This document shows positions 13,152 through 22,080 of a stretch of 60,295 nt of DNA, piece after piece. Where the stretch lies: the NCBI GenBank assembly GCA_012520455.1, contig JAAYOE010000186.1, positions 1 to 60,295 on the forward strand, in the 5' to 3' direction. A model generated the notes under the pieces. That model had not been told where the DNA came from. It was given only the letters and a program-made list of their open reading frames with translations, and searched no databases. Each line of letters begins with the position of its first letter. Positions within the stretch are counted from its first letter, which is position 1. The translations under genes were made by a program, and so were the position numbers. The stretch is from Tissierellia bacterium (GTDB lineage Bacteria; Bacillota; Clostridia; Tissierellales; Sedimentibacteraceae).

Positions 13152-13694
<543 letters not shown>

Positions 13695-13706
13695 AATGAA
13701 AAATAC

Positions 13707-13734
13707 CGGGATGACAAGGGTCATCCCGATTTTT
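13707..13734 (+). terminator. intrinsic terminator after pyrR
   Basis: CGGGATGAC-AAGG-GTCATCCCG followed by ATTTTT. Confidence 0.85.
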
Positions 13735-13750
13735 ACGGGCAAAATTTAAT

Positions 13751-13779
13751 TTGATTATTCTGTCGAAAAATGATAGAAT
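13751..13779 (+). promoter_or_regulatory. candidate sigma-A-type promoter of the two-gene NTPase/HEPN unit
   Basis: TTGATT - 17 nt - TAGAAT with TGA extended -10, about 75 nt before the ATG. Confidence 0.5.
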
Positions 13780-13851: not shown

Positions 13852-16800
13852 ATGAGTATAGGTTTATATTTTAAAAATGATGTTAAAGTAGACGAAAAGG
13901 TTAAGATTACTTTAAACAGCGGAGCAGTACATACCGGCAAAGTTATTTCATATGATGACAATATTGTGGTGATTGCGGCCAACGGACGACCAAAGCCAAT
14001 AAACTTCAACGGTATTGCCGATTATGAAATTATCGAAGACAATTTAAGCAATGACGGCGATGATTTAAATAAAACCCCCTTCCAAAAAGAAATAAAAGCT
14101 TCCATGGACTTTTTCAAAGGCATTGATATCAAGTACGAGTTTTCGGCAAGTGATTTCAGCAAAGAGCGAAAATCAGCCAAGGATAATATATCGGATGATT
14201 TTTTAAGCATTGAAAATTCATTTTTATATGCTGTCAAGCTGAAGGAAACAGACCCTAAATTCGGAAGAATGGACAGGATAATTGCGTCAATCAAGCATCT
14301 TCAGGAAAGCAGCGACATTGATTTCTATAACTATGCCTTAGGCGAAGTATACTTTGTATGCGGAAATTTTAAAGAAGCCGGGGACTATTACTATAAAGCC
14401 AAGAAATATATGCCTTCCGCAGCCATGTACCTAAAATGCGGCAATGATGAAGGTGCCATGAATGCGTCGGCAGCTGCTTGCTTAACTGCCGATAGTATTA
14501 GAGAAATTGAAAATGTCTTTAAGCTGATGGTCGTAAGTACGGAAAAGATTAAGGATATTTCTGTACTGAAAGAGTGTTTCAACAGGAAGAAAGATAATTT
14601 AAACAGTGAAAGTATTAAGCTTTTTACTGATGCCTTTGTTTACTTTTCATCCCTTTCAAAAATAAGCATCAATTGGCCTGATAACCTTACATATTATTCA
14701 CCTGACAATTTGCTTGCAATTATAAATCAAACGGCAGAAAGCAACAAGTACAAGAAAGATAATCTCTTGATTGATTTTATCAATGAGGAGATTGATAAAG
14801 CAAAGGATGCCGGTAATAAGAATGAGACCAATGAAATGCTGACCGGGAGGATAATCAGGTTCAATCCGTTAAACAACACCGGTTTTATTTCCACCTTCGT
14901 GGATTCTGTTTTTTTTCATATTTCCGAAGTTTGGGATGAAAATCTAAAAAACAAGATTTTAAGAGGTTCATATAAAGATATATATGTTGAATTCAGTTTA
15001 TCGGAACGTTTTAACAAAAAAAGAGGGACATACGGCAAGGTTGCCACAGGCATCCGTTTCAGCAAATCCATACCCGAAAAACCGCAAGCAGAGGCAAAGA
15101 AATTCTTGGGAACATCAAGGGAAGGATATATTAACTCTTACACTCCCAATAAAGAAATTGGTACCATTTATTCGGGAAAGGACGTATACAGCTTCCTGCT
15201 CAGGGGGGTGAGTGACAAGGCCTTGGCCGGAAAACTCTGTACCGACTATGATATTTCCGGAATCGAGGTAACTTTTGAGGCAAGGAAGCTTCCGGGCGGA
15301 AAGCTTGCAGCAGTGAATGTAAAGCCCAAAAACCCTATTCCTGAAGAAGTTCGCAAATCATATGAGACCTTTGCCCCTGTAATCGATAAAACCACATACA
15401 GGACCGAGAAAGAAGACTTATTGGACCCTGAAAAAAAGGAAAGCATTTTATTGTCACTGGTTAACAAGAATCCCAATAATGAGAAACATGTGGCCGATTT
15501 AATAACCTTTTATTTATCAACTGCAAATCAAGACCCGGATTCCATAAAAAAGGCCTTGAGGTTAGTCGAAAGACATAAGAGGTATTTTGAAGAGGAACGT
15601 GTATTCCTCCAGTATATACGAATATATGAAAAGGCAAAGGATTATGAGAAGCTTTTAAAGTATTATAATTTAGTAATTCAAAATACCGATGCCGTAAACA
15701 GAAAACTCCACTATTTAAATTTAAAGGCTGATATACTTTCAGATTCAAACAAGGGGTGTTTGGACTATGAAAAGGCCATAGAAACATATCAGGAGTGGAT
15801 AGCCGTAAAGAATAAAAACAAGGTATTGTTAGGAATTAAGGACGATTATACGGGATCTTACGCATCGATTGAATTAAACATCAAGAGAAGGTTAGCCGTT
15901 TGCTATCTGAATCAAAACAATGAAAAGGCAGCAAAGGAGATAGCCTCCGAAATTTTATCCCATAATCCGGCAGACCAAATAGCCGCCGGCATTATCCAGG
16001 GTACATATTATCCCAATAATTTGGAATCAGACCAGCAGCCGGAAGCAGATGACAGCGATTTGTACTACTATGATTTTGAATTGAATGACATCATGCAAAA
16101 CCGTCTGAGTAATTTTAAATTATCCGTTGTTTTTACCCACGTTAATGATTTGGAGGATGAGAAACTAAAGGGGACCATTTCGGTTGCAAGGACCAAGGTC
16201 AGAAAGTTAGAAGACAGTTTAAACACCTTGAATACACAAAGACCTAAGGACTACAGAAACACCTGCCTGGCAATTGCCAAAATAATTGACCAGTATATGT
16301 CCAAGGATACGGAGAAGGATGGTTTATTCAACAAAAAATCCCGATTTGAATACATGATAAGAAGCTTGGTTGCCGAAGGAGACCTGTCGGTTAAAACCGA
16401 GGAAGTACCTATTGACGCGGCAAGATACTTGTATCTGGAATCAAGTGCAGAGATTGAACAGCTGAACCAGCAGCTCTATATTAACGCTTACGTCCGATAC
16501 TTGGTATCCTTCTTCGTAGAAAGAAAGGATATTCCCATCGGTGTGACAAAAACCGGGGTAAACCTGAATCCGACAACCCCCTTAAGCTATTTTTCCAAGT
16601 ACGGCTTAAATGAAAACCCGGTAAACTTTGTAAATGCATGCACCATGCTCTTTATTAAAAAGAATAACTTAATAAACCAAATATGCCAGCAGATTTGCGA
16701 ATCAAAGAATCAGGAATTAATATCTTCCATAATAGAAGTTTTTCAAGCTGCCTTAGGAATCGACAATATAGAAAATATAAACACCAAGAGTCTCGAAGAC

Positions 16801-18783
16801 CTTTGGAGCAAATATATATTTTGGTTTAAGCAGAAGCTGCAGGATTTCAAGCAGGCGGTAAAGGAAATTGATAAGATTGAATTTTCGACATTTTGGTTAG
16901 AACACAACATTGAAAAATTAGAGCAATACTTAAGATACAATATAATTTTGGCTAAAGACAATGAGCGGATGAAGGAAGTGATAGGGCTTTTAAACATTGC
17001 AAACCGCTTTGTTACGGATAAGGACTTTGATAACAGGGAAACTGCCCTGAGGGATATAATCAGAAAGGGCCGGAGCTTGGAAAAGGATATATTTGAATCC
17101 CCGACCCCCTTTGCCTTTGATACCGTAAGACAAATCCTGCCTGAAATATGCAGTGTGGCAGAAAGGAAGCTCATTGAGTTATTTGTAGCTTATAAGCCGG
17201 AATTATCGGTTGAAATCATAAACAGCAACACATTTTTGAACAACAGGGAATGTGAATTAAGGTTTGTTTTAAAAAACAAATTATATTGCCAGACGGTCAG
17301 GGAGATAGACATCAGTTCAGCAACCCACACAACTTGCATAACTCGGGACATCAACAAGGATTATGTCAAGGGGGGAAATGATGAAACTTTGATTATTGCC
17401 GTTAAACCCACGGCTGACCAGATCAGCAGGAAGGCCTTCCAGTTCAATCTGACCATAAAGTATAAGTATATGGTATCCCCGGATGATACCATAGAGGACT
17501 GCCTGAGCGAAGACTTTTCAATTAACTTGTTCAAGGAAGCTGATTTTATTGAAATTAATAACCCCTACAGCGCCATAGACACAAGCGGTGAAGTCAGGGA
17601 TAAAAATATGTTTTTTGGTAGGGATGAATTTATAGCCGGTATTGTAAATAACTTGAGAAACAAGGACAATACCCTGCTCAGATCCAAATGCATAGCCTTG
17701 TTCGGCCAAAAGAGGGCAGGCAAGTCATCTATTTTATACCACTTGGAAAACAAGATTAAGTCTGCCTATAAGAATTCCATCGTGATAAAGTTAGGCAACA
17801 TCCAAAACATTCTGAGCGGCAACGACAGCAAATCGGTAATTATCAGCTTCAGACACAGGATACTCACCCTGTTGAACGAAAAATTGGAGGACCATTTTCC
17901 CGAGCTTTTAGAAAAGATGGAAGCAAGCAATATTTCCTTCCCGACAATCGGGGAATTGACCAGTGAAATAGGCCCCAGCTTATTTATAAGCTTTTTCGAA
18001 AACTTCAATAAAAAGGTGATTAACAAGGACTACAACATAGTGATATTGATAGATGAATTCACCTATGTTTACGGAGAAATAAAGAAGGGGAGGCTGGATT
18101 ATACCTTCATGCAGCTGTGGAAGGCCATGATACAGGACCTGGAATTTGTCGGTATTTTAGTAGGACAAGACTACATGGAAAAATTCATTAATGATTTTGC
18201 CAATCCCTTCGGCACAGTCAAGAAAGAAAGGGTAACCTATTTATCCCGTGAAAGCACCAAGGAATTATGCGAGGTACCCATTCAAATAATCCATGAGAAC
18301 GGAGAAAGGGAATCCAGGTACAAGGACGAAAAAGCCTTTGAAAGAATCTGGCAGGCGACGGCCGGGAGCGCTTTTTACACGGTGAAAATCTGCAGTGCCC
18401 TTGTAAATTATCTAAATGATAAAAAATCTCCCTATATAGTTGAGGCTGACATCAAGAATGTCATCAACAACATACTTCTGCAGGATAACGGAAGGCTGTC
18501 GGAATCCGAATTTGATGCCTTGTTTAATGACGAGGGCGATATAGAAGATAAGGCAAAAAAGGATGACAACATAAAAATTCTCAAGAAAATTGCCCAGATG
18601 TCACAGAAGGATGATTATTGCCTGAGAAGCGATATTGTTTGCGATTTGCCCCAAGAGAGGGTGGATATGCTGCTCCAGCTTTTATGTGACAGGGACGTAT
18701 TGGAGCAAAAAGAAAACAAGTACAAGATTAAGGTAGGCTTGTACAAGGATTGGCTGATTAAAAGATACGGAGGTAACAACTGA
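13852..18783 (+). CDS. giant multidomain protein: Sm/SH3-like N-term, cold-shock-like OB domains, TPR-like helices, STAND/AAA NTPase, C-terminal winged helix
   Basis: 1643-aa ORF; NTGFISTFVDSVFFHISEV CSD-like (14836-15063); second OB-like segment (15121-15333); Walker A FGQKRAGKSS at 17701; Walker B NIVILIDEF at 18034; C-term wHTH-like VDMLLQLLCDRDVLEQKENKYKIKVGLYKDWLIKRYG. Confidence 0.8.
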   Translation: MSIGLYFKNDVKVDEKVKITLNSGAVHTGKVISYDDNIVVIAANGRPKPINFNGIADYEIIEDNLSNDGDDLNKTPFQKEIKASMDFFKGIDIKYEFSASDFSKERKSAKDNISDDFLSIENSFLYAVKLKETDPKFGRMDRIIASIKHLQESSDIDFYNYALGEVYFVCGNFKEAGDYYYKAKKYMPSAAMYLKCGNDEGAMNASAAACLTADSIREIENVFKLMVVSTEKIKDISVLKECFNRKKDNLNSESIKLFTDAFVYFSSLSKISINWPDNLTYYSPDNLLAIINQTAESNKYKKDNLLIDFINEEIDKAKDAGNKNETNEMLTGRIIRFNPLNNTGFISTFVDSVFFHISEVWDENLKNKILRGSYKDIYVEFSLSERFNKKRGTYGKVATGIRFSKSIPEKPQAEAKKFLGTSREGYINSYTPNKEIGTIYSGKDVYSFLLRGVSDKALAGKLCTDYDISGIEVTFEARKLPGGKLAAVNVKPKNPIPEEVRKSYETFAPVIDKTTYRTEKEDLLDPEKKESILLSLVNKNPNNEKHVADLITFYLSTANQDPDSIKKALRLVERHKRYFEEERVFLQYIRIYEKAKDYEKLLKYYNLVIQNTDAVNRKLHYLNLKADILSDSNKGCLDYEKAIETYQEWIAVKNKNKVLLGIKDDYTGSYASIELNIKRRLAVCYLNQNNEKAAKEIASEILSHNPADQIAAGIIQGTYYPNNLESDQQPEADDSDLYYYDFELNDIMQNRLSNFKLSVVFTHVNDLEDEKLKGTISVARTKVRKLEDSLNTLNTQRPKDYRNTCLAIAKIIDQYMSKDTEKDGLFNKKSRFEYMIRSLVAEGDLSVKTEEVPIDAARYLYLESSAEIEQLNQQLYINAYVRYLVSFFVERKDIPIGVTKTGVNLNPTTPLSYFSKYGLNENPVNFVNACTMLFIKKNNLINQICQQICESKNQELISSIIEVFQAALGIDNIENINTKSLEDLWSKYIFWFKQKLQDFKQAVKEIDKIEFSTFWLEHNIEKLEQYLRYNIILAKDNERMKEVIGLLNIANRFVTDKDFDNRETALRDIIRKGRSLEKDIFESPTPFAFDTVRQILPEICSVAERKLIELFVAYKPELSVEIINSNTFLNNRECELRFVLKNKLYCQTVREIDISSATHTTCITRDINKDYVKGGNDETLIIAVKPTADQISRKAFQFNLTIKYKYMVSPDDTIEDCLSEDFSINLFKEADFIEINNPYSAIDTSGEVRDKNMFFGRDEFIAGIVNNLRNKDNTLLRSKCIALFGQKRAGKSSILYHLENKIKSAYKNSIVIKLGNIQNILSGNDSKSVIISFRHRILTLLNEKLEDHFPELLEKMEASNISFPTIGELTSEIGPSLFISFFENFNKKVINKDYNIVILIDEFTYVYGEIKKGRLDYTFMQLWKAMIQDLEFVGILVGQDYMEKFINDFANPFGTVKKERVTYLSRESTKELCEVPIQIIHENGERESRYKDEKAFERIWQATAGSAFYTVKICSALVNYLNDKKSPYIVEADIKNVINNILLQDNGRLSESEFDALFNDEGDIEDKAKKDDNIKILKKIAQMSQKDDYCLRSDIVCDLPQERVDMLLQLLCDRDVLEQKENKYKIKVGLYKDWLIKRYGGNN

Positions 18784-20306
18784 TGGATAATCCTTTCATT
18801 GTTGGAGCAGAGGTTGAAGGAGAAAGCTTTATAGGGCGGAGGGACCAATTAAAGCAATTCAATGATTTATTGTATAAGAATGATTCGAAAAGCGGGAGCA
18901 TATCCTTAACGGGCATAACCAGGATAGGCAAAAGCTCCCTGATACGAAATGCCGTGAAACTTAACGAGAATAAAAACATAATAACGGTCAAGACGGTCAT
19001 AAGCAAGTTTTCAGATTTTAACGAATTCTGGACAGATGTATTATCCTTGGTGAGGGATGAACTGGAATTTGTCGAAGGCAACTATTTTAAGGAAATCAAT
19101 GCTCTTGATGCAGCTATTGATGCCGGCACCAATGATACCTATAATTTCAGGAGGAAGGTAGAAAAGGCATTTAAGCTGATATCCAAACAATTAAAGCTGG
19201 TGATAGTGATCGATGAGTTTGATTTTGCGGAATATGTCTTTGGATCCGACTCTTCCAACTTTCAGTTTTTCCGTGAATTAATATCCTCGGCGGACTATAA
19301 GATGACCTTTATAACAATTTCAAGGCGGAGCTTGATTCACATTGAGACAAGGTCCTTCGGAGGCTCGACTTTAGACGGAGTATTTAAAAAGATTAGCCTC
19401 AGGGGATTTTCAAATGAAGATTTGCAGGAATATTTCAATAAGTTCGACAGCCTGCAGATAAAATTGAGCGATGACATAAAGAAAAAGATTTTGTATTATG
19501 GGGGCAGGTCTCCTTACCTTTTATCTGCAATCGGACAGGAAATAGTATACAGGCAGGGGGCTGATGATTTTGATTCCGTCCTTTCCGCATGCAATCAACA
19601 ATTTTTGGATTACTTCAAGAGGATAGTAGAGTTGTTAAAGGATGAAGATTTCTATAACAAGCTTTTGCAGATCTATATCGGGCCCAGATACAATATAAAA
19701 CAATATGATATAGATGAGCTTGTATCAAGAGGTTATATTTCCAACAAGATAAAAGGGTTTTATGATACCGGCGAAGATAATATAGATGAATTCAAGTATG
19801 AAACCATATCAGAATATTTTGTTGAGTACCTCATGGATATATCCCAGCCGGAAGTAGGAGAGATTTGGCCTGTTTTGTCCGAAGCCGAGAAGAAGTTAAG
19901 GTCAATCATTGAAATAGAACTGACCGGCATGTTTGGCGGAAGGTGGATGGAAGAGCTTGAAAGAGTAAACCAGGAATACAAGAAGAACAAAAGGACCTTT
20001 ATTGATTTTGATAAGGTTAATATAAACTTAGCAGTCAACAAGAAAAAGTATAAGGAAAGGGCAAGCGATAATATCCTGACCACGGTAGGCATCATGGAAT
20101 TAAGAAACATCCTCCAGCATTACTGGACAAGGTTTGCGCCATATTTTAACAATGACCAATTTTCTAAATGGTCTGACAGGTTTTATTTATTACATAAGGC
20201 AAGAAATCCCTTGGCTCACAATACGGCTGAGTTTTTGACGGAAGAGGAAATTATGGAAACAGAACTTTACTGCCGTGAAATAATATCATCCATTGCTAAG
20301 AAATAA
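18783..20306 (+). CDS. STAND/AAA-type NTPase with C-terminal HEPN (Swt1-like) domain
   Basis: NPFIVGAEVEGESFIGRRDQL; Walker A GITRIGKSS (18912); Walker B LVIVIDEFDF; C-term YLLHKARNPLAHN R-x4-H motif (20202); TGATG overlap with upstream gene. Confidence 0.8.
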   Translation: MDNPFIVGAEVEGESFIGRRDQLKQFNDLLYKNDSKSGSISLTGITRIGKSSLIRNAVKLNENKNIITVKTVISKFSDFNEFWTDVLSLVRDELEFVEGNYFKEINALDAAIDAGTNDTYNFRRKVEKAFKLISKQLKLVIVIDEFDFAEYVFGSDSSNFQFFRELISSADYKMTFITISRRSLIHIETRSFGGSTLDGVFKKISLRGFSNEDLQEYFNKFDSLQIKLSDDIKKKILYYGGRSPYLLSAIGQEIVYRQGADDFDSVLSACNQQFLDYFKRIVELLKDEDFYNKLLQIYIGPRYNIKQYDIDELVSRGYISNKIKGFYDTGEDNIDEFKYETISEYFVEYLMDISQPEVGEIWPVLSEAEKKLRSIIEIELTGMFGGRWMEELERVNQEYKKNKRTFIDFDKVNINLAVNKKKYKERASDNILTTVGIMELRNILQHYWTRFAPYFNNDQFSKWSDRFYLLHKARNPLAHNTAEFLTEEEIMETELYCREIISSIAKK

Positions 20307-20310
20307 AAAC

Positions 20311-20331
20311 CGGGGACGGATACCGTCCCCG
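20311..20331. terminator. terminator hairpin between the convergent NTPase/HEPN unit and rqcH
   Basis: CGGGGACGG-ATA-CCGTCCCCG, flanked by an A-rich tract (T-rich on the - strand). Confidence 0.8.
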
Positions 20332-20334
20332 AAA

Positions 20335-22080
20335 TTATTCTTTTGACTTTATCCCCTTGATATCAGGCTCTGCAAGCATTGAATAATTAGTGTCGTATAT
20401 TACAAAACCTGGCTTGGCATTTGGGGGCTTTTTAATGTTTGATTTTTTGGTATAGTCCACTTCAACCCTGCCGGAATTTTTTCCCTTGCTGTAATAGGCT
20501 GCAATCTTAGCCGCTTCAATATATTCTTCATCAGTTAATTCATCTCCCATAGTCCTGATGACCACATGGGACCCGGGCATATTTTTGGCATGGAACCAAT
20601 AATCTTCACTTTTCGCTATCTTAAATGTTATCATATCATTTTGAATATTGTTTTTTCCCACCAATATTTCATGGCCGCCTGAAGATATGAAGGTGGTGAT
20701 GGGTTTCGTCTCTTTAGGCTTATTAATCTTTGACCTTTTCTTCATCAGCCCCTGGCCAATCAGCTCACTGTAAATGTCGTCCAAATCCTCAGTGGTTTCG
20801 CATTCCTCGATGGAAAACAAAATATTTTCCAGGTAGGCTATTTCGCTTAAAGTTGAATCAATTAATTTTTCAAGTTCCTCAGCAGCATTTTTCAGCTTGT
20901 TGTACCTCTTGAAATACTTTTGGCTGTTTTGTGACAAGCTTAGCTTAGGATCCAAGGGTATAGTTATTTCTTTTTGGTCGGGGTCGTAGTAGTTTGCAAC
21001 TGTCAGCTTGTTGTCTTCCGGCCTCTTGTGGAGGTTTGCGAGAATCAGGTCTCCGTAAATCCTGTACTTATCCCTGCTTTCGGCATTGAGAAGCTCGGTT
21101 CTCTGCTTTTCAACCTTCTTTTTATTTCTTGCAATTTTCGTATTTATACTTTTGATGAGACTTGCAACCCTTTGGTTGATTTTATTCTTATTGTCCAATT
21201 CATAATAGTATTCATCAAGGAGGTCACCGGATGAGGGGAAGGATTTTTTGCCGAAGTCCTTTAAGTATTCCACCTCTAAGCAATAAAAGCCATAAATTTT
21301 GTTTTCATCATAATATATATTAAAAGAAAAGTCATTTTCATTTATTCTGTCTCTTATCTTACTGAAGGCATCCCATAGTTCTTCCTTTTTTTCATGGCTT
21401 AACTCGCCTAAGCAGGTGCTTTCATTGAGATTTGCCAGCCAGCAGATTTCCCTTGATATGAAAGGGCTGAAGCCCGTGAAATTCTTATAAAAGAAATCAA
21501 ATATAAATATGCCCCGGTTTGTTGATTCAAGTTCTTCCATAAATGATTGGCGGTCTGCTGTCAGGGGGTTCAACTTATCAGACCCGGGGGGAGCCTTATA
21601 AGAAAGTCCCGGATAAACCTGCCTTACGGAGCTTACCTGGGGAGTGACTCTTATTAGAGAATCAATTATGGTATTGCCTTCATTGACAAAAATAATGTTG
21701 CTGTGTTTGCCCATTATTTCAACGATGAGGGATTTATTAGCAAGGGTCCCCAATTCATCCCTGGACTCAAAAGAAATTTCAACGATTCTGTCAAAATTTA
21801 TCTGCCTTAGGCTCGTAATACGGGCCCCTGTCAGGTGTTTCCTCAAAAGCATGCAAAACATGGGGGGCTCCATAGGATTCTTCCTGGTGATGCTTGTGAG
21901 GTGAAGCCTGGGACTTGAACCGGCTGCAGTTATTAAAAGCTTCAGGTTTTCTCCCTTGCTTCTAATGCTCATAACTATTTCATTTTTATCAGGCTGATGT
22001 ATTTTATCTACCCTTCCGCCCGTAAGCTTTTTATCTAATTCATTTATTATACTCTTTATAAAAACACCGTCTAATGACAT
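20335..22080 (-). CDS. rqcH: NFACT family / Rqc2 homolog RqcH (fibronectin-binding-like protein)
   Basis: MSLDGVFIKSIINEL, N-terminal NFACT-N, C-terminal NFACT-R with DYWFHAKNMPGSHVVIRT; start set at the internal ATG. Confidence 0.95.
   Translation of the reverse strand: MSLDGVFIKSIINELDKKLTGGRVDKIHQPDKNEIVMSIRSKGENLKLLITAAGSSPRLHLTSITRKNPMEPPMFCMLLRKHLTGARITSLRQINFDRIVEISFESRDELGTLANKSLIVEIMGKHSNIIFVNEGNTIIDSLIRVTPQVSSVRQVYPGLSYKAPPGSDKLNPLTADRQSFMEELESTNRGIFIFDFFYKNFTGFSPFISREICWLANLNESTCLGELSHEKKEELWDAFSKIRDRINENDFSFNIYYDENKIYGFYCLEVEYLKDFGKKSFPSSGDLLDEYYYELDNKNKINQRVASLIKSINTKIARNKKKVEKQRTELLNAESRDKYRIYGDLILANLHKRPEDNKLTVANYYDPDQKEITIPLDPKLSLSQNSQKYFKRYNKLKNAAEELEKLIDSTLSEIAYLENILFSIEECETTEDLDDIYSELIGQGLMKKRSKINKPKETKPITTFISSGGHEILVGKNNIQNDMITFKIAKSEDYWFHAKNMPGSHVVIRTMGDELTDEEYIEAAKIAAYYSKGKNSGRVEVDYTKKSNIKKPPNAKPGFVIYDTNYSMLAEPDIKGIKSKE

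Follow-up and report, generated by a model that had tools for sequence, protein, structure and literature searches.

A giant STAND NTPase gene and its STAND partner with a probable HEPN domain form an acquired cassette in a Tissierellia bacterium and may encode a conflict system

The analysed stretch of DNA, referred to here as the window, comprises 60,295 nucleotides of contig JAAYOE010000186.1 from a Tissierellia bacterium (assembly GCA_012520455.1). It carries two adjacent genes for related STAND NTPases, which form an accessory cassette at a site that is empty in the closest relatives. The first gene, P1, encodes a giant protein proposed to act as sensor and switch, and the second, P2, a smaller protein with a probable HEPN domain at its C-terminus. 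It is proposed, at somewhat better than even odds, that the pair acts as an accessory conflict system of two components, which most likely provides abortive anti-phage defence and in which the giant sensor would license the HEPN RNase.

Results

Organization of the gene pair

P1 (13852-18783, 1643 aa) and P2 (18783-20306, 507 aa) both start with ATG and lie, like all features given below, on the forward strand. As described in a first-pass annotation, they overlap as TGATG; read from the sequence, the overlap amounts to one base (context CTGATGG), and a GGAGG is found within the 3' end of P1, nine bases upstream of the P2 start codon. This arrangement suggests translational coupling, which was counted in favor of a two-component system. 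P1 is preceded by a sigma-70-like promoter (TTGATT and TAGAAT spaced by 17 nucleotides, 13751-13779), so that the pair looks like a transcription unit of its own. Promoter elements and spacing are identical upstream of P1 at the orthologous loci L005 and L006, which together with the window represent three species. GC-rich, terminator-like hairpins at 13692-13735 (GGGATGAC...GTCATCCC) and 20306-20340 (CGGGGACGG...CCGTCCCCG) bracket the cassette. Between species, P1 and P2 have dN/dS values of 0.05-0.08, comparable to those of the adjacent housekeeping genes, and are therefore regarded as real genes under purifying selection.

Domain composition of P1 and P2

The N-terminal part of P1 begins with a predicted Hfq-like Sm domain (residues 1-62; 13852-14037), which was absent from the first-pass annotation. 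It was modelled as a helix and five strands (pLDDT about 80), and comparison with Hfq crystal structures of Listeria, Staphylococcus, Bacillus and Caulobacter yielded a Foldseek probability of 1.00, a target TM of about 0.67-0.78 and E values of about 2e-3 to 2e-2. Pfam scored this segment weakly for Hfq/LSM (0.03-0.07) and a sequence profile of the Sm domain reached Hfq in the PDB solely at E values above 1; the Hfq-like assignment therefore depends on the structure model. Of the cold-shock-like OB folds claimed for P1, one was recovered as a cold-shock domain at about residues 331-400 (14842-15051; Pfam CSD, E 0.0024 in the window and 5e-6 in the ortholog at L005, with 26.7 bits at a cut-off of 27). 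In one of the three orthologs (L006) this domain is removed by an in-frame deletion. A second (about 418-492; 15103-15327) had no Pfam match and is a possible OB fold by sequence pattern only. TPR repeats follow at about 526-715 (15427-15996; Pfam TPR_14, 3.4e-5), of which residues 530-620 were modelled as helical hairpins (pLDDT about 75). The adjoining conserved region at about 736-1110 (16057-17181; dN/dS 0.036) is all-helical in the structure prediction, at low confidence, and a beta-rich, possibly Ig-like segment precedes the NTPase. Model confidence of P1 is low at about 63-520 and 690-990.

The C-terminal part of P1 contains an NTPase of the STAND (ATPase_2/Cdc6) type at about 1238-1540 (17563-18471). 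In the window the Pfam matches to nSTAND1/ATPase_2 are weak; in aligned relatives ATPase_2 is matched at 1e-11 to 1e-12, and the profile of this NTPase matches Cdc6 at 8e-4. An NPYSAID...MFFGRDE entry motif, the Walker A motif GQKRAGKS (1285-1292; 17704-17727) and the Walker B motif VILIDEF are present, and by its sequence this multidomain P-loop protein can be placed among the STAND NTPases. The winged helix that had been read at the C-terminus is probable: a Cdc6_C match in one relative (G498, E 0.025) lends weak support to it at about 1570-1640 (18559-18771), a region with a dN/dS of 0.026. Across P1, the N-terminal sensor part evolves fast (dN/dS 0.14-0.18) compared with the switch region (0.03-0.05).

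P2 likewise contains a STAND NTPase at about 12-260 (18816-19562; Pfam AAA_16, 2.5e-10) with an NPFIVG...FIGRRD entry motif, the Walker A motif GITRIGKS (44-51; 18912-18935) and the Walker B motif VIVIDEFD, so that the claimed combination of entry motif, Walker A and Walker B holds for both proteins. The model of this NTPase is confident, and its structural matches are the archaeal ATPases PAB2304 and SSO1545, Cdc6/ORC and plant NB-ARC resistosomes; sequence and model both indicate membership of P2 in the STAND NTPases. At about 365-507 (19875-20303) a Swt1-like HEPN domain is probable. Searched alone, this region matched HEPN_Swt1 at 3.1e-5 with 24.6 bits, under the curated cut-off of 27.5, and the PADLOC model PDC-M34B at 3e-8; the structure model is helical at low confidence. 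The HEPN-like end of the earlier reading is supported by these matches and by the motif RNPLAH (residues 474-479; 20202-20219), which is invariant in the orthologs of three species. When P1, P2 and the cold-shock region were searched against PDB sequences, no match was obtained.

Distribution within the genus

The pair is flanked by pyrR and rqcH and interrupts an otherwise housekeeping stretch, as had been noted. It was found in three of the 25 genomes of the genus, each time at the same site, and in the nearest relatives without it the gap between pyrR and rqcH measures 72-73 bp. The three carriers group together in an rqcH tree as a single clade (support 0.94), which is nested within genomes lacking the pair. 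Because the closest relatives have the empty site and the pair is confined to this three-genome clade, P1-P2 represents an acquired accessory cassette, for which a single acquisition followed by vertical descent within the genus is the simplest account. In other congeners (loci L049, L052, L056 and L057) the interval between pyrR and rqcH is occupied by additional, unrelated DNA or by small genes, and this gap may be a tolerant insertion site.

In searches for close relatives, P1 and P2 had no match among plasmids, P1 none among phages and P2 none among viral contigs. The absence from plasmids bears on a toxin-antitoxin-like arrangement, in which P2 would be a constitutively toxic RNase inhibited by P1 and would serve cassette maintenance or be released upon a phage trigger. 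Co-directional overlapping genes with the HEPN protein last would suit such a system, and HEPN domains are common toxins (PMC3710099). P1 is, however, much larger than known antitoxins and has a conserved NTPase of its own, and the presence of another NTPase on P2 points to a regulated switch rather than to simple neutralisation. We therefore give this explanation little credence.

Remote relatives and conservation of the pairing

With a profile of the NTPase end of P1, giants were matched at E below 1e-50 in eight further genomes, which belong to three other families of the class; where complete, these giants have about 1604-1679 aa, and the loci in G498, G696 and G801 are interrupted by contig ends. 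The wider phylum sample added one further giant, in the very remote genome G332 (2047 aa; E 2e-12, NTPase only). The class and phylum genome samples overlap, and frequencies drawn from them are rough. Weak matches in G503, G541, G606, G650, G667, G767, G804 and G805 were set aside as probably due to TPR or P-loop similarity.

At all nine remote loci, in the three families and the very remote genome alike, a P2-like gene lies directly 3' of the giant, and the distribution is patchy. The co-occurrence expected from the first-pass annotation was hence observed. When a P2 profile was run over the pair-bearing genomes, strong matches were confined to the pair loci or to contig pieces continuing them, and within the reach of this profile, which missed the partner in G332, neither P1 nor P2 was seen solo. 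The P2 profile also weakly matches the P1 NTPases, which indicates that the NTPases of P1 and P2 are related. PADLOC matches to JetB, mad8, PifA and PDC-M42C were weak and local and were rejected as chance or shared P-loop similarity.

Eight of the nine remote partners have an RxxxxH motif near the C-terminus (RNKCDH in two, RNKCMH in three, RRKCMH, RKACMH, and RNCLAH in G332). The G498 partner (439 aa) is without RxxxxH. Sixteen bp after it lies a gene for a 141-aa protein with a hydrophobic C-terminus (L015:983-2743), and an effector change in this lineage, with the small hydrophobic protein replacing HEPN, is possible. A profile comparison of the remote partner C-termini with the HEPN region of the window was not significant, so that a common origin of these ends rests on position and motif; the remote P2 proteins had no match to PDC-M34 either.

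These ends also bear on the idea that the HEPN-like segment serves for binding and that P1-P2 is a non-nuclease signalling or transcription switch, similar to MalT-type STAND proteins with a winged helix-turn-helix. The winged helix at the end of P1, the sub-threshold HEPN evidence and the G498 partner would agree with this. Against it stand the invariance of RNPLAH in the orthologs and the recurrence of RxxxxH near the C-terminus of nearly all remote partners, and we regard such a switch as improbable.

At the other end of the pair, searches of the P1 N-termini from the other families revealed neither an Sm nor a cold-shock domain, although the G498 giant starts with a weakly similar segment. 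This argues against the RNA-sensing part of our proposal as a general feature, and RNA sensing may be particular to the lineage of the window. As far as sequence comparison can tell, fixed switch modules with changing ends are the pattern of the P1/P2 family.

Genomic context of the pair

Proximity to defence genes, which had been put forward as a check on the proposed function, was not observed: the window holds no defence island, and defence genes are absent beside the pair in most relatives as well, most of which lie amid metabolic genes. The sole relative locus adjoining defence-type genes is that of G332 (L073:1406-8076 and L072:4172-11649), in which the giant STAND gene is followed by a 475-aa gene bearing the RNCLAH motif. 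Its divergent neighbors are a YprA/DruE-type helicase (DruE3 model, 4e-75), a 279-aa gene and a TPR protein whose C-terminus reads cold-shock-like, with no such domain reported by Pfam. Judged by sequence, this neighborhood resembles the TALON/TOTE arrangement (PMC12458937), the 279-aa gene being a candidate TBP only. In g319 genomes two WYL-domain genes adjoin P2 in convergent orientation (L036:5035-7330, L040:3542-5858) and are possible regulators of the pair. In G505 (L038:1037-7882) the P2 gene is split by genes of a Mu-like prophage (Mor activator, gpT head, I protease and virion morphogenesis).

The absence of defence neighbors in the window and most relatives counts against a defence role, as do the vertical inheritance at one site under housekeeping-like selection, unlike many mobile defence genes, the plasmid and phage records without a match, and an HEPN assignment that stays under curated cut-offs, with a low-confidence model and remote C-termini that do not align significantly with the HEPN region of the window. 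The pair could instead be a cellular RNA-surveillance or stress system without a role in phage defence, in which the giant would respond to stalled ribosomes or to damaged RNA of the cell itself, and P2 would cut RNA or arrest growth. The missing defence neighbors and the mode of inheritance and selection within the clade are compatible with this, and in other proteins cellular RNA is the substrate on which Hfq-like and cold-shock domains act. However, the pair is missing from 22 of the 25 congeners and from the majority of the genomes sampled in the class and the phylum, so that there is no general need for it, and its sensor ends vary between families. We consider a surveillance role unlikely, if a serious alternative to the conflict system proposed here.

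Discussion

Comparison with known systems

The combination of HEPN, STAND NTPase and cold-shock-like OB domains in single proteins has been known since 2013, for example in Bacillus cereus gi:229028907 (Anantharaman et al., 2013, PMC3710099), and to this extent the earlier description of the system as undescribed does not hold. The three kinds of domain are the same as in P1-P2. Those proteins, however, are one chain with an N-terminal HEPN domain and one NTPase, whereas P1-P2 has two genes, two NTPases, a C-terminal HEPN domain and, in addition, the predicted Hfq-like Sm domain and TPRs. In a library of open-access papers, which is a part of the whole literature, no description was found of a split into two paired STAND genes, nor of an Hfq-like domain on a STAND protein of such make; these two features, as read from the sequence, are what appears to set the pair apart. 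In keeping with the earlier view that the pair is not identical to a named system, P1 matches no PADLOC model.

CoCoNuTs, which are built around a coiled-coil McrB GTPase and homologs of McrC (PMC11090510), resemble the pair in three respects: in Type I the NTPase protein bears a cold-shock domain, in Types II and III-A the operon includes a gene for an HEPN effector, and the predicted target is RNA. An McrB-type GTPase, coiled coils and an McrC homolog were not found in P1/P2 by Pfam and PADLOC, and the neighbors of the pair are housekeeping genes. The SAMD9 family, including its bacterial members, also has a large STAND-like NTPase with TPRs and a cold-shock-like OB fold, in the order NTPase-TPR-OB, with Sir2-like/AlbA domains and GG in Walker A (PMC5445408). 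In P1, by contrast, the OB and TPR parts are N-terminal of the NTPase, Walker A reads GQKRAGKS with GKS, and the effector lies in a second gene; no Sir2-like/AlbA domain was among the Pfam matches of P1/P2. TOTE/TALON systems (PMC12458937) share TPRs and a cold-shock fold with the pair, and the G332 relative adjoins a TALON-like module, whereas the window pair is without a neighboring TBP gene, helicase or nuclease of the TOTE/TALON type. As in Avs (AVAST), a STAND NTPase would couple a repeat sensor to a nuclease-type effector; the PADLOC Avs models gave no match in P1/P2. Avs proteins hold effector, NTPase and C-terminal sensor within one chain, while in P1-P2 the sensor is N-terminal and the effector resides on a second STAND protein. 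PDC-M34, which requires both an A and a B component, was rejected, as only the P2 C-terminus resembles PDC-M34B and P1 is unmatched. The defining features of CoCoNuT, SAMD9, TOTE/TALON, Avs and PDC-M34 were not found in the pair.

Proposed mode of action

In the favored reading as a conflict system, the N-terminal Hfq-like Sm, cold-shock and TPR part of P1 would recognise an infection-linked RNA or ribonucleoprotein. The STAND NTPase of P1 would then change state and assemble, and may engage the related STAND NTPase of P2. The HEPN domains of P2 would thereby be brought together or dimerise to an active RNase, which would cut cellular or phage RNA and lead to growth arrest. This reading is favored by the domain assignments, the translational coupling, the constant pairing, the patchy distribution, the contrast between a fast-evolving sensor end and a slow switch end, and the helicase module beside the G332 pair. 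The genes, most of their domains, the pairing, the acquisition as a cassette and the mode of selection were established from the sequence data, while we infer the ligand, the contact between P1 and P2, the RNase activity and the defence role.

Tentatively, and at somewhat less than even odds, the family may represent a class of bacterial immunity that has not been named, with the work shared between two related, adjacent STAND NTPases as in the sensor/helper NLR pairs of plants. The giant would carry exchangeable N-terminal sensors (here Hfq-like Sm and cold-shock domains for RNA) and the smaller protein an exchangeable effector (an HEPN RNase, for which a small hydrophobic protein may be substituted in one lineage).

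In well-known bacterial STAND receptors such as Avs, a single chain unites sensor, switch and effector. Two STAND genes that form a conserved pair, and whose sensor ends differ, would be a parallel to the plant NLR pairs, and an Hfq-like domain on a STAND receptor would suggest direct RNA sensing; owing to the pairing, both ideas are testable with two genes. If the pair does not serve defence, it would still be a conserved, apparently RNA-directed switch.
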